Source: Anarhynchus alexandrinus (lineage: Eukaryota > Chordata > Aves > Charadriiformes > Charadriidae). Taken from it: a DNA stretch of 64,000 nucleotides. Numbering within the stretch: position 1 is the first letter of the stretch; every line of letters begins with the position of its first letter. Below are positions 1,685-39,100 of this stretch, piece after piece. Both the position numbers and the translations under genes were made by a program. The notes under the pieces are model-generated. The model had not been told where the DNA came from, searched no databases, and saw only the letters and a list, made by a program, of their open reading frames with translations. The stretch covers positions 1,764,096 to 1,828,095 of the forward strand of contig VUYV01000088.1 of assembly GCA_008711295.1 (NCBI GenBank), written 5' to 3'.

Positions 1685-1689
1685 CCACA
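1685..1689. repeat. Left 5-bp target-site duplication (CCACA)
   Basis: CCACA immediately precedes the TG of the left LTR and recurs at 2569-2573, immediately after the outer end of the inverted right LTR. A 5-bp duplication is normal for ERVL-like integration, and here it brackets the whole inverted structure rather than a single LTR. Confidence 0.7.
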
Positions 1690-1888
1690 TGTTATGGTTT
1701 CAGTTGTGACAGAGTTACCTTTCTTGCTGGCAGGTGGTATAGTGCTATGTTTTGGATTTGGGATGGGAAATAGTGTTGGTGCACACTGGTGTTTTTGGTT
1801 TTTGCTAAGCAGTCAAGGTCTTTTCTGGTCCTCATCCTGCCCCACCAGCAAGGAGGCTGGGAGCAGATACAGCTAACCCCAACTGACC

Positions 1889-1935
1889 AGAGGGATATTC
1901 CATACCATGTGACATCATGCTCAGTATATAAAGCT
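1889..1935 (+). promoter_or_regulatory. LTR core promoter with TATA box
   Basis: The conserved module runs from gatattccatacc through catgctcagTATATAAAG to gctggggg. The TATA box is at 1925-1933. The same module, with its TATA decayed to TATCAAAG, is present in the solo LTR at about 46939-46992. Activity cannot be judged from the sequence. Confidence 0.6.
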
Positions 1936-2112
1936 GGGGGAAGAAGAAGGAAGGGGGGGATGTTTGGAGTGAAGGCACGTATCTTCCCAAGTAACTGCTA
2001 CGTATGATGGAGTCCTGCTTCCCTGGACATGACTGAACTATGTCGGACTACTGGAAGCAGTTCATGATTTCCTTGTTTTGCTTTGCTTGCATGAACATCT
2101 TTTGTTCTACAT

Positions 2113-2118
2113 ATTAAA
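2113..2118 (+). terminator. LTR polyadenylation signal ATTAAA
   Basis: ATTAAA lies about 185 bp downstream of the TATA box and is followed by a T-rich stretch, in the normal position for the R-region poly(A) signal of this LTR family. Confidence 0.5.
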
Positions 2119-2254
2119 CTGTCTTTATCTCAACCCGTGAGTTTTTTCTCACCTTTACTCTCCTAATTCTCTCCCCCATCCCAACTTGGGGGAGTGAGTG
2201 AGTGGCTGTGTGGTGCTTGGTTTCTGGCTGGGCTTAAACCACAACAATCCTTTT

Positions 2255-2272
2255 TGGCACCCAACATGGCCC
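2255..2272 (-). other. Primer-binding site, lysine tRNA type
   Basis: Eight bases (2247-2254) after the LTR end, the sequence reads TGGCACCCAACATGG. This is close to the complement of the 3' end of tRNA-Lys(CTT) plus CCA, whose standard complement begins TGGCGCCCAACGTGGGG. Both differences near the start are CpG-type transitions. The homology does not stop after the usual 18 bases but continues to 2322. Confidence 0.75.
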
Positions 2273-2322
2273 ACAACCCTGAGATTAAAAGTCTTATGCT
2301 CTACCGACTGAGCTAGCTGGGT
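2255..2322 (-). pseudogene. Reverse-transcribed tRNA-Lys copy
   Basis: On the minus strand this is a nearly complete lysine tRNA. It has a 5' acceptor end resembling GCCCGGCTAGC, a D-arm reading GCTCAGTCGGTAGAGC, an anticodon arm, the T-arm, and a terminal CCA joined directly to the LTR leader. The D-arm and T-arm fit tRNA-Lys(CTT), although the anticodon triplet now reads TTT. About eight bases are missing from the T-loop, covering position 58. CCA is added to tRNA after transcription and is not encoded in vertebrate tRNA genes, so this copy came from mature tRNA through reverse transcription. The T-loop deletion and acceptor mismatches make a functional tRNA gene very unlikely. Confidence 0.8.
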
Positions 2323-2359
2323 GAGAGGTTCCAGGTTGGTATTCTGGGCAAGCTCTCCA
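2323..2359 (+). pseudogene. 3' half of a second tRNA copy, proline-like
   Basis: On the plus strand this 37-base segment reads like the 3' half of a tRNA. It begins with the anticodon-stem and variable-loop sequence GAGAGGT, continues with a T-stem pairing CCAGG with TCTGG around a 7-base loop, then an acceptor strand and CCA at 2357-2359. The closest tRNA I know is tRNA-Pro. Outside the T-loop the differences are transitions plus one inserted base. The T-loop is altered at positions 56-58. CCA abuts the reverse complement of the leader of the right-hand LTR, so this is that LTR's primer-binding site extended into its tRNA. The isotype is less certain than for the lysine copy. Confidence 0.55.
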
Positions 2360-2367
2360 AAAATGAC

Positions 2368-2568
2368 TGTTGTGGTTGTGGACTTCTTGTGCACTCCCAG
2401 CCTACTCGCTGGCAGGGTGGGATGAAGAGCAGAAAAGACCTTGACTGCTAAGAAACAACCAAAACCACAGGTGCGCTATCAGCCCTATTTCCCATCCCAG
2501 ATCTGACACATAACACTATAACAGCTGCTTGTAAGAAAATTAACCCTATCCCAATAGAAACCATGACA
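2368..2568 (-). mobile_element. ERVL-like LTR, inverted and internally deleted
   Basis: On the minus strand this begins TGTCATGG at 2568 and ends CCACAACA at 2368. Its first 190 or so bases match the U3 of the left LTR. There is a perfect 19-bp match of 2430-2448 to the complement of 1809-1827, and of 2485-2498 to the complement of 1760-1773. After that the copy jumps straight to the last few bases of an LTR, so about 350 bp (the TATA box, R and most of U5) are missing. It differs from the left LTR at roughly one base in four or five by eye, which suggests either great age or derivation from a different subfamily. Confidence 0.8.
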
Positions 2569-2573
2569 CCACA
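2569..2573. repeat. Right 5-bp target-site duplication (CCACA)
   Basis: This is an exact match to 1685-1689 and lies directly outside the outer (U3) end of the inverted LTR. Confidence 0.7.
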
Positions 2574-24384: not shown

Positions 24385-24955
24385 ATCCACAAAGTTACAG
24401 CTATATTTAAAATGCCATTAAATCCAGACAGTGTTTTCTGAGTTAAGCCTTTTCTCATTCTCAGTTGCCTTTTCTTTAAAAATGAAGTCTATATCTTTCA
24501 AGATATTAACATTGTCAATATTTTCCTTTTTAGAATAAAAGTATTTTAATTTAAAAATTATCAAAACTTTCTACCTCTTCTCAACTAGGTTCACAATAAA
24601 ATTCACAATAAAAAGAAATGTGAATAGCCAAATTGATCAATTAACACTTCAAAAGGCTAAGCAGTGACAACTGTATATGTCACTCAGTCATTTCCCATTT
24701 ATTAATTACAATCACAAAACCTCAGCAGAGGATGAGAAAGAGGAAACTATTGATTATCTGTTAAACAAAGACCTTTAAGAGGTCTAAATAATTTAAACTC
24801 TAATTGTAATTTGAGCCAATCTAACTCTTTATATTATTGAAAACAAAACAAAAAAAAATATTTTTCAGGGCAGCAACTCAATGTCATTCTTAGAGACAGA
24901 CAAATAGACACAGAGACAATGTTGAGTGAATTGGCTATTCATGCTCAGCTCTACA

Positions 24956-25118
24956 GGGTCTGGTTGGGATGGAGTTAATTTTCATCATAGCAGCTTGTAT
25001 GGTGCTATGTTTTGGATTTGTGACCAAAGCTGTGCTGATAACTCAGGGATGCTAAAACTGGGTGGGGGAATGAGCAAGCGGCTGCGTGGAGCTTTGCTGC
25101 CAGCTGGGGCTAACCCAA
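24956..25118 (+). mobile_element. ERVL-like LTR, internally deleted
   Basis: About 100 bp of U3 is fused to about 60 bp of U5. The U3 part includes gtgctatgttttggatttg at 25002-25020, identical to 1742-1760. The U5 part reads gagcaagcggctgcgtgg ... ccagctggggctaacc. The TATA and poly(A) regions are missing and both termini are eroded. It is the same family as the inverted pair at 1690-2568. Confidence 0.75.
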
Positions 25119-36061: not shown

Positions 36062-36185
36062 TCTCAAGGCACTTTAAAACATATGCAATAAATTTCACAC
36101 ATGCATCCCTTTGTCATGTAATTAAACCAAGTTACAGAGAGCTGAAGGATGACATGTCCAAGGTCTCACCGTAAATTGGAAAGCC
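36062..36185 (-). repeat. MIR-type SINE relic
   Basis: Reading ggcactttaaaac ... ttacagagagctgaaggatgacatgtccaaggtctcac, it matches the reverse complement of the MIR core (agaggttaagtgacttgcccaaggtcac) and the 3' tail. Confidence 0.5.
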
Positions 36186-39100
36186 CCTTTCAGCAGATCC
36201 ATAGTACCTCATTATATCAGTAATAGATGTATGTGCTGGTTCTTTTTTTTCCCCAGAGCACTGGCAGCCAGTCTGGAGTGGTCTGTAGGTGGAAACTCTG
36301 GAAAACAATAATGTGGTTTTAGAAATGACACTGCTGCCTATCTCCTTTGTAATAACCTTTTGTTGTTCAAACCTAGCAGAAGAAAAAAAATAAAAATTAC
36401 TTGTGTTGTTATGTGCCTTTTTTTGGTAACTTGAACTATTTACGGTATCTCCATTATTTTCCTCTTCTGTGGGGAGGGCATACAAAAACATATTTATTGT
36501 ACTGTCTATTTTAACTTAACCACAGGGCTGCAGGTTTAATATCTCAGCACTTCACAATCCTCATGTTTACAACATCCATGAGGTAGTAAAGTTCCGCTTG
36601 TAGATGGTATTATAAGATTTTTTTCAAGGCTGGAAGAGTTTAGAAATTCCTTTAAATTCTGCCATGTACATTATAACGTAGACAATCCTTCCTTCATGTA
36701 TGAGAGCAACAGCAATTATTTCCATAGAAATAGTCACTGAAAATCAGAATATAACATAATAGTATGTATATGCTTCTGTAGGACTGAGTCTGCTCCCTGA
36801 TTTGCTCGTAAACCCCCATAACCATCCCGCACCCTACACTGTGTTGAAAGGGAGGTTGTTTTCATGCTAGGGCATTGCTGTTGCCCCTCGATGTGAGGAT
36901 GTTTGGTGAAGGCAATCTTCAGGCAATATAGGATAGCAATGTCAACACCTGCGTGCTTAGCCAGCATATGAAAAAGTGCAGAGAGAACAATGTTCACAAG
37001 CTGTGAACAGCAAAGCAGCTATCTGGGTGGAAGTGAACACTGTGTCTTTTCTAATTAGGTCAGAACCGGATGGTTTGAAAAGGTCCTAAAACTACTTTTG
37101 CACTTGTAGTTGGTCACTGACAGTGCGCATGGATGTCTGGCAGCGTTTTTAGTTCAGGCTGGGATGTATGACAGTATTTACTGTGGATAAGCATTTTGTG
37201 GATCTTGTTTTACACTGTAAAACCTGGCAAAAAGAAGGTCCTGAGAGAAGTCCTTAAAGGAACTATTTGTCCTTTTTCCTATTAAAAAGAAAAAAAAAAT
37301 GTGGGCAGTTTTTTTAACATGTACTGTGTATGCAAAGGTATTTTTACCCTGTTTTTTCAATTGGGGAGGGTTGTTTGTTTTCATCTGGGTTTTGGCTTTT
37401 TGAGTTTTCATACGGTTGCTGTTCATTATTTTGAAAAACTGTGGAAATAAATACTTTTAGACAATTCATAGAGAGCACAACCAAGGCTTCTGTATGTTCC
37501 TTCCCCATTTCATTTCTCAAAGACTCCACGGGATAGGCAAGAACCCAACTTCTGAAATTTAGATTTATCACCGAGATGCCTGATCAATAGATCTTTGATC
37601 TCAGTAGGACTCTCCCACTGGGAGTTGGACTAGGTGCAGATTTATTTAGAACAAAGCAGCCTGTGTGTGGCTGTTCCCAGATGACTTTGTGAGCACTGTG
37701 CATTTGTAGGGATTAGTTTATAGGCTGGCTAGCTCAACAGATTTTTTTCCCCATGGTTATTTCAATGTATCAAGGCATAAAACCAAGACAGTCCAGATAT
37801 GTCAGATTACATATTCTCTTCTGACTATATTCTCTTGTTTTTCTAGTACATTTTCTGGGCTAGTTGTGTTTGTTCATTTGTTTGGCTTTATATAGTTCTG
37901 TTCTAACATTTGAAGTGAGCCAGCAAGGTACTTCTGTTCAAAAGACTGTTTTGTGAGTACCTGAACAAAACCCACAAAATATTCCAGGTAAAATCTGCTC
38001 TTTTTAATCTACTCTTTTTAATTATAACCTCTCTGGTAGGCCTGAGAGGCATATATAAATTTTTTATATTCACAACAACGAGAAGCTTCTTCATGAATGC
38101 CATTAGTACAGTTGCTCTCTGCACTTAGGAAAAAAGCAGGTTCCCATCTTTAGCGTAACCAAATTATACGAGTCTAGTGAGCAGTGATATAAATAACAGC
38201 ACTGATGTCTTCAAGCATCAACTGACGTGTGTTAGACTCGACAGGTTCTAGTAATTGAAGAACCTGTGATTGACTTAGCGAAGCCTGTGCCACTGTATGT
38301 CACTGTAGAAAGGTTCTTCCTCTGTGTCTGTGATGAGGGGCAGGGGAGTCTAACGCAAAAGAAGGACAAAAAGATTTTAATTTGTTAATCTCAAATGTCA
38401 GAACCACAGTGACTTTAATCATTGCTCTTTTTAAGGTCCATCTATTATTACTGATTTTTCTGCCCATATTTCCCAAGGTCTGAAATGATATAAAAAGAGA
38501 TAATTGTCTTTCTACTGATAGCTGCTTCTCTGCCCATTGATCAATAGCTGATGGATACTCTTGGATCTCCAGTGCTCTGTGGGACCTGAAAAGTTTACCT
38601 GGCACATGGATAGCTACCATGACGCTTGTGCATCCCTCGAGAACTTTTTCTGTAAACCTTTGTAATTGGCTACACAGCCGTGGTTCAGAGTGTTTGTCAC
38701 AAAGCAGCATTTATAGGACTCATTTGACTTTATAATATCTAATTTGTGCATGGTTTTTTTATCAGAAAGAGAGGGTTTGACATGAGCACAGGGGCAAAAT
38801 AAGTCATAAATTAGGGCAGTGACTTCTCATCATACTTCAAAATTCCCCTTACTATTCCATTTTTTCTGACACATCATCTCTCCCGGATGCAACGAGAGTG
38901 AAGCACCAGCTATGTCTGTCAGCAACAGTGTCTTAAAACCCTGTTAAATGTTCTCAAACAGGAAAGTTTTAGTGCTTATAACTCGGCGAGCAGGGGAGGA
39001 GAGCCGTGTGACCTCCTTCTGTCTGCTGCTCCTCTGATACTAATTTCAGGCTGCTGACTGATTGGCAAGCCGCAAACCTGTTAGCAAGAGATTTTTAGCT

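Follow-up and report, generated by a model that had tools for sequence, protein, structure and literature searches.

How could two long terminal repeats (LTRs) of a retrovirus come to stand tail to tail in the genome of a bird, with DNA copies of tRNA between them? The question is raised by a window of 64,000 bp in the assembly of Anarhynchus alexandrinus (GCA_008711295.1; 1.19 Gb in 1076 contigs), the window being the whole stretch of DNA that was analysed, C88:1764096-1828095 (contig VUYV01000088.1), to which coordinates refer unless another locus is named. An earlier note, made from the letters alone, had read positions 1685 to 2573 as an LTR, a leader, a complete tRNA-Lys copy, half of a proline-like tRNA, the inverted leader and an inverted LTR, took the centre for the junction of two tRNA-primed strong-stop products, and knew of no description of such an element. 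In an ordinary provirus or solo LTR, U3 forms one end and U5 the other; this pattern is absent here, both outer ends being U3.

The inserted unit spans positions 1690-2568, has U3 LTR ends at both termini with TG and CA outermost, and is enclosed by two copies of CCACA (1685-1689 and 2569-2573) that can be read directly. From the left, a complete LTR of 557 bp (1690-2246, plus strand; TG...CA, U3 end outward), whose ends were set by its other copies, is followed by the 8-bp leader that separates U5 from the primer binding site (2247-2254, plus strand), recognized by family comparison and reading ATCCTTTT where the family mostly has GTCCTTTT. TGG, the complement of CCA, comes directly after the leader (2255-2257) and opens an antisense DNA copy of tRNA-Lys(CTT) (2255-2322, minus strand), beyond which a 37-nt piece (2323-2359, plus strand) leads with its CCA up to the inverted leader (2360-2367, minus strand; GTCATTTT on that strand). 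The latter agrees with the family at 7 of 8 positions (AAAATGAC against AAAAGGAC) and belongs to an inverted repeat (2237-2257 and 2357-2377) of 90% identity. The left LTR and both leaders are thus as the earlier note had them, and so is the position of each CCA where a primer tRNA would be attached.

The inverted LTR, in contrast, does end at 2568 but is not whole, about 370 of its 557 bp being missing. It keeps its last ~10 bp before the leader (2368-2377, minus strand; AACCACAACA), which form part of the inverted repeat, and an outer U3 part of 175 bp (2394-2568, minus strand, U3 end outward), identical to the left arm at 138 of 175 positions. Beside the internal deletion lies a short stretch (2378-2393, minus strand) whose outer ~12 bp match some family copies, and when the right arm is aligned to L007, L012 and further copies, the match extends to arm position 187, the outer part retained being perhaps ~187 bp. 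This arm is 84% identical to the LTR copy L002. At the centre of the element, the 34 bases beyond the TGG of the right arm meet the 5′ end of the tRNA-Lys. Three imperfect 19-bp repeats, each with CCACA, are found directly to the left of the element (1635-1690), and elsewhere in the window (24951-25118) there is a related LTR whose middle is mostly missing, leaving the U3 start and the U5 end.

Positions 1690-2568 appear to be a single insertion that duplicated the 5 bp CCACA, and the relatives of the LTR follow the same rule. The left LTR is 74-84% identical to 39 other LTR places, some of them partial (best 40 scored of 4204 candidates). A search for LTR ends gave 114 candidates, and 26 loci were fetched from the best 40 places, those left out being the window, L014 and 12 places that match the LTR end only; the leader or a close variant follows the LTR end in 24 of the 26, TGG comes next in 21, and 21 continue through the primer binding site into shared internal sequence. 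Flanks were compared in 26 family LTR loci (32 entries minus six with incomplete ends), including L012 and L014, which score 0 because their right side carries the leader and not a target site. At a length of 5 bp, 13 of these loci match at four or more positions and nine match exactly, against 9 and 3, respectively, of 650 cross pairs, and exact matches of length 4 or 6 were absent from the 26 loci. The 5-bp duplication is therefore the rule in this LTR family, and it is the one feature by which the retrovirus would be classed as ERVL-like, duplications of this length being those of ERVL (class III).

Two independent insertions, or a later inversion or deletion, might instead have placed the two LTRs tail to tail, with a 5-bp match arising by chance. 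In favour of this, the family is abundant, as the 4204 candidates indicate, and old, and the left-flank repeats contain CCACA three times. It would nevertheless require an exact chance match of the kind seen in 3 of 650 cross pairs together with a tRNA copy that happens to end at nucleotide 1, and the coincidence would have to recur in three further elements described below (L102, L012, and L109). We therefore hold this explanation to be very unlikely.

The stretch at 2255-2322 is an antisense tRNA-Lys, with 39.8 bits against the Rfam tRNA family RF00005 (gathering score 29). Its alignment to tRNA sequences, proposed as a check by the earlier note, gave a score of 96 with a presumed reference sequence of tRNA-Lys-CTT; no shuffle comes near (maxima 24 with n = 300 and 27 with n = 400). 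Identity amounts to 61 of 68 positions, the seven differences being transitions, four of them at CpG. The copy is antisense, includes CCA and ends exactly at nucleotide 1 of the tRNA, but it is not complete as had been stated: its one gap, of 8 nt, takes away tRNA positions 54-61, that is, the T-loop (with A58) plus one base. ARAGORN reported no tRNA in the window, which might be expected because the copy is without its T-loop. At 68 bases, and reaching nucleotide 1, the copy exceeds the 18-base primer binding site that limits an ordinary provirus.

Several other origins of this arrangement were considered and dropped. A tRNA gene or a SINE inserted between the LTRs should have left its own duplication, and none is visible around the tRNA part, whose CCA adjoins the leader and which ends at nucleotide 1. 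A TRIM with a tRNA, of the Helenus type, does not fit a tRNA copy that lies outside the LTRs, at a junction found once in the genome search, nor does a DNA transposon with long terminal inverted repeats fit ends that are LTRs, seen elsewhere as solo LTRs, and a junction that was not refound. The search in question, made with window positions 2243-2394, returned the junction itself and two partial tRNA-Lys-like matches, three candidates having been scored, and a miss in it does not prove rarity. Library preparation can create palindromic junctions, and a fold-back chimera of the library or the assembly would mimic a tail-to-tail element; this is exceedingly improbable for arms that differ by 21%, are unequal in length and stand inside an outer duplication. 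As arms 79% alike and unequal are unlike a fold-back copy, the artefact was rejected as well. The tail-to-tail structure with its tRNA-Lys centre is real.

Antisense copies of tRNA-Lys were also met at two other loci. In L038 (C236; locus positions 1279-1556), a presumably retroviral protease-like stretch is joined to an antisense tRNA-Lys copy (1502-1556) of 55 nt, 53 of them identical, which keeps the T-loop and stops at nucleotide 22, so that skipping of the loop is not obligatory; the upstream part of this locus is masked. In L037 (C40; 1501-1545), a partial antisense copy ends at nucleotide 1, the 3 kb of the locus show no LTR match, and the sequence downstream is presumably CR1-like. Reading frames that are presumably CR1-like were also met in this genome and, together with its size, fit a bird. 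Judging from these two loci, copying into tRNA-Lys was probably not a single event in this genome.

The 37-nt piece on the right of the centre (2323-2359) had been called proline-like. It has the shape of a T-arm, with a 5-bp stem and a 7-nt loop, and was compared with 41 distinct ARAGORN sequences from 30 tRNA loci fetched of 56 matches. Against a tRNA-Pro of this genome it is identical at 26 of 37 positions, with 10 mismatches and one gap (score 27), where decay as fast as in the left copy predicts ~4 mismatches. The five tRNA-Pro sequences of the genome score 23-27; a presumed reference sequence of tRNA-Arg-ACG scores 28, and the genome's own Arg-ACG scores 21. None of 396 genomic 34-mers reaches 28, one of 400 shuffles does, and the best of a separate set of 300 shuffles scores 27. 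Nothing stands out in the folding energy of the piece: 17 of 200 shuffles fold as well. A cluster of tRNA sequences on C405 (584000-594000; L057, L066, and L068) holds several sequences of tRNA-Pro, Ala, Ser, and Thr that look decayed, among them one Pro-like body with an anticodon read as AAA.

The piece is probably tRNA-derived, Pro- or Arg-like, and probably represents the 3′ half of a second primer tRNA. The claim of two different tRNAs accordingly stands for lysine, whereas the second is weakly tRNA-like, with its CCA at the leader, and may be Arg (28) as well as Pro (27). It is conceivable that only the left half is as described and that filler or retroviral sequence makes up the 37 nt; in that case, one over-extended plus-strand strong-stop DNA would have been joined to an unrelated 3′ end. 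The closeness of the Pro, Arg and best shuffle scores, the ordinary hairpin energy and an outer pairing of five bases, GAGAG/CTCTC, that is not a tRNA feature would suit filler. The T-arm geometry, the scores of 23-27 obtained by all five tRNA-Pro sequences found in the genome and a CCA placed exactly at the inverted leader argue for a tRNA, and filler is in our judgement quite unlikely.

Primer tRNAs are copied into DNA when plus-strand synthesis enters a tRNA still attached to the minus-strand DNA, and this synthesis normally halts at m1A58, a known roadblock, after 18 bases. Since the minus-strand DNA carries the tRNA, as RNA, at its 5′ end, it is the plus strand that copies it, and the arms would be plus-strand strong-stop DNAs. 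The idea of two tRNA-primed strong-stop products can be retained with the strand corrected from minus to plus; it is well supported for the left half and plausible for the right. Indeed, the left arm has what characterizes an over-extended plus-strand strong-stop DNA, namely U3-R-U5-leader followed by the complement of a tRNA over more than 18 bases.

As the best explanation, we consider it reasonably probable that reverse transcription failed in an endogenous retrovirus with 5-bp duplications and that the window element is the result, integrated with two U3 ends. Plus-strand DNA begun at the polypurine tract would have passed m1A58 by skipping the T-loop, as the deletion of just this loop with its A58 roadblock suggests, and would have run off the 5′ end of the tRNA. 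Within the same family, another plus-strand strong-stop DNA would have copied the 3′ half of its tRNA and stopped near the anticodon loop. Being over-extended, both products would have been unfit for the second strand transfer, and their 3′ ends may have been joined by a polymerase switch or by end joining, which would yield a linear molecule bounded by U3 on both sides. Insertion of such a molecule by integrase through its two U3 ends, leaving the 5-bp duplication, is the well supported step of this sequence. The ~370 bp of the inverted LTR may have been lost during reverse transcription or later.

The divergence of the parts offers an approximate date. The tRNA-Lys copy has changed at 10% of its positions, and two initially equal arms that decay at this rate should differ by ~20%; the 21% observed suggests that there was probably very little difference between the arms at insertion and that they came from near-identical RNAs. 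Both are closest to L002 and not to each other, among the sequences compared. Other family copies (best 40 of 4204) differ by 16-26%, which fits the clock set by the tRNA copy, a single small sample of seven substitutions, and the event is probably about as old as the LTR family.

The double-U3 form recurs elsewhere in the genome. The comparison covered 32 distinct LTR loci (L031, L032, and L034 being repeats of L014, L012, and L029); they are the best matches to the window and not a random draw, and the sample is biased accordingly. Besides the window, L012 was the only tail-to-tail case among them, and of the 26 LTR-end loci, three (L102, L109, and L099) contain LTR sequence in inverted orientation in the ~800 bp that were fetched. 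L012 (C555; 1501-2470) has the flanks CGGAG and AGGAG (4/5), and its joint consists of leader-TG and the R end of another LTR. Its right arm belongs to a different LTR family, B (40 scored of 1650 candidates), with 87% identity to the closest of the B copies fetched and 61% identity to L012's left arm. All 20 fetched B copies (of 39 other places listed) run past the joint, from which it follows that the B arm was cut just after the ATTAAA signal. For the same reason, a solo LTR-B inserted into the leader was dropped as an explanation of L012. With arms from two LTR families only 61% alike, L012 indicates that joining between two nucleic acid molecules occurs.

The other three cases differ in their centres. 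L102, with L115 and L116 (C428, ~36180-37484), has the flanks AACAG and AACAG (5/5) and consists of LTR(+), leader, primer binding site, ~450 bp of internal sequence, seven T and an inverted U3-R; on the sense of the inverted arm these are seven A, and they are missing from three internal copies. L109, with L117 (C71, ~2224273-2225329), is flanked by CTTTC and GTTTC (4/5), has arms 90% alike over 103 bp, and contains at its centre inverted internal sequence and further LTR pieces, the first ~150 bp being partly assigned. In L099/L119 (C206), the inverted R end known from L012 follows an LTR at leader-TGG, and inverted internal sequence, primer binding site and leader come next, where the element ends without an LTR; its flanks agree at 2 of 5 positions and show no duplication. 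Four of the five candidates (window, L102, L012, and L109) thus have flanks that match at 4/5 or better, with joints at the R/poly(A) end (L012, L102), complex (L109) or at tRNA (window). The sisters would share the double-U3 end product and differ in part in the joint: the R/poly(A) end is involved in three of the four (L012, L099, and L102), and a tRNA copy was recognized at the centre of none of these four elements.

These joints bring in another possibility, that the polyadenylated 3′ end of a viral RNA supplied the inverted arm. Its poly(A)/R end would have annealed to a run of U, either the UUUUU of the leader or an internal one, and been extended, and second strands started at two polypurine tracts would then leave U3 at each end. 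On this view, additional switching would have brought tRNA copies into the middle of the window element, making it a variant of the scheme. The inverted arms of L012, L099, and L102 do stop just after ATTAAA, the 20 fetched family-B copies (of 39 listed) run past the stop of L012, and the seven A at the joint of L102 are lacking in three internal copies. For the window, however, this account is unlikely: the inverted arm is U3 with the last U5 bases, leader and a CCA-ending piece, and not U3-R, and the left arm ends at the 5′ end of a tRNA.

The double-U3 reading draws its strength from a tRNA copy that ends exactly at nucleotide 1, from CCA at the leader and from a duplication of 5/5. It is weakened by a 37-nt piece that is weakly tRNA-like, an incomplete inverted LTR, the missing duplication of L099, sisters without a tRNA centre and the threefold CCACA of the left flank. 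On balance we lean slightly toward the view that this retroviral lineage has repeatedly given rise to integrated double-U3 proviruses as a class of by-products. Integrase could then pair and insert two U3 ends, and tail-to-tail joining, at times between RNAs of two LTR families, would allow dead-end intermediates, whether over-extended plus-strand strong-stop DNAs with tRNA copies or RNA 3′ ends, to reach fixation in the germline.

Parts of this scheme are known from other systems. Over-extended products of HIV-1 with tRNA-Lys3 include P1, which reaches the 5′ end of the tRNA, and P5, which stops in the anticodon loop, and neither can serve the second strand transfer, according to a 2026 review (PMC13191261). 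Apart from its missing T-loop, and with HIV-1 and tRNA-Lys3 in place of the present tRNA, the left arm corresponds to P1, and the right arm resembles P5 in its stop position; P1 and P5 are products of HIV-1 reverse transcription, whereas the form in the window is joined and fixed in a germline genome (PMC13191261). A murine retroviral circle with tRNA-Gly between its LTRs (Colicelli and Goff, 1986, as described in PMC12220202) resembles the window element in that a tRNA that had misprimed did not come off, served as template for the plus strand and was kept between LTRs. It differs in being unintegrated and in having one tRNA that lacks four 5′ bases, and the portion of the description available to us mentions no double-U3 ends (PMC12220202).

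A Jurkat clone carries a tRNA-Gly next to an HIV provirus (Gurgo and Franchini, 2025; PMC12220202), a reverse-transcribed tRNA whose CCA abuts the LTR in chromosomal DNA, as in the window. Its authors hold that this insertion was probably not mediated by integrase, and tail-to-tail LTRs are not described in the sections available (PMC12220202). HIV proviruses with asymmetric LTRs and inversions are also on record, template switching being invoked for the LTR deletions, and, unlike for the window, the available text reports neither double-U3 ends nor tRNA copies (PMC9278108). Helenus, a short LTR element with a tRNA-like sequence and 4- or 5-bp duplications, shares these two traits with the window element, but its tRNA-like part is enclosed by the two LTRs, in a mobile family that has PBS and PPT, whereas the window junction was found once, between inverted LTRs (PMC10886601). 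Among the matches listed in a literature search by title and start of abstract, with subscription papers mostly outside it, there was no U3/U3 provirus and no integrated tail-to-tail LTR pair with tRNA copies. The supposed novelty of the structure therefore holds for the integrated double-U3 form within that search, and not for a tRNA between or beside LTRs, which is known (PMC12220202).

The window element resembles a fossil in which intermediates of reverse transcription, otherwise seen in the tube or in infected cells, have been preserved. Its tRNA copy would record the path of plus-strand synthesis after a failed stop, with the missing T-loop marking the modified base. If the double-U3 class is real, genomes could be mined for primer use, for read-through of tRNA modifications and for the co-packaging of different element RNAs, and such fossils could show whether integrase requires ends of both kinds, U3 and U5.
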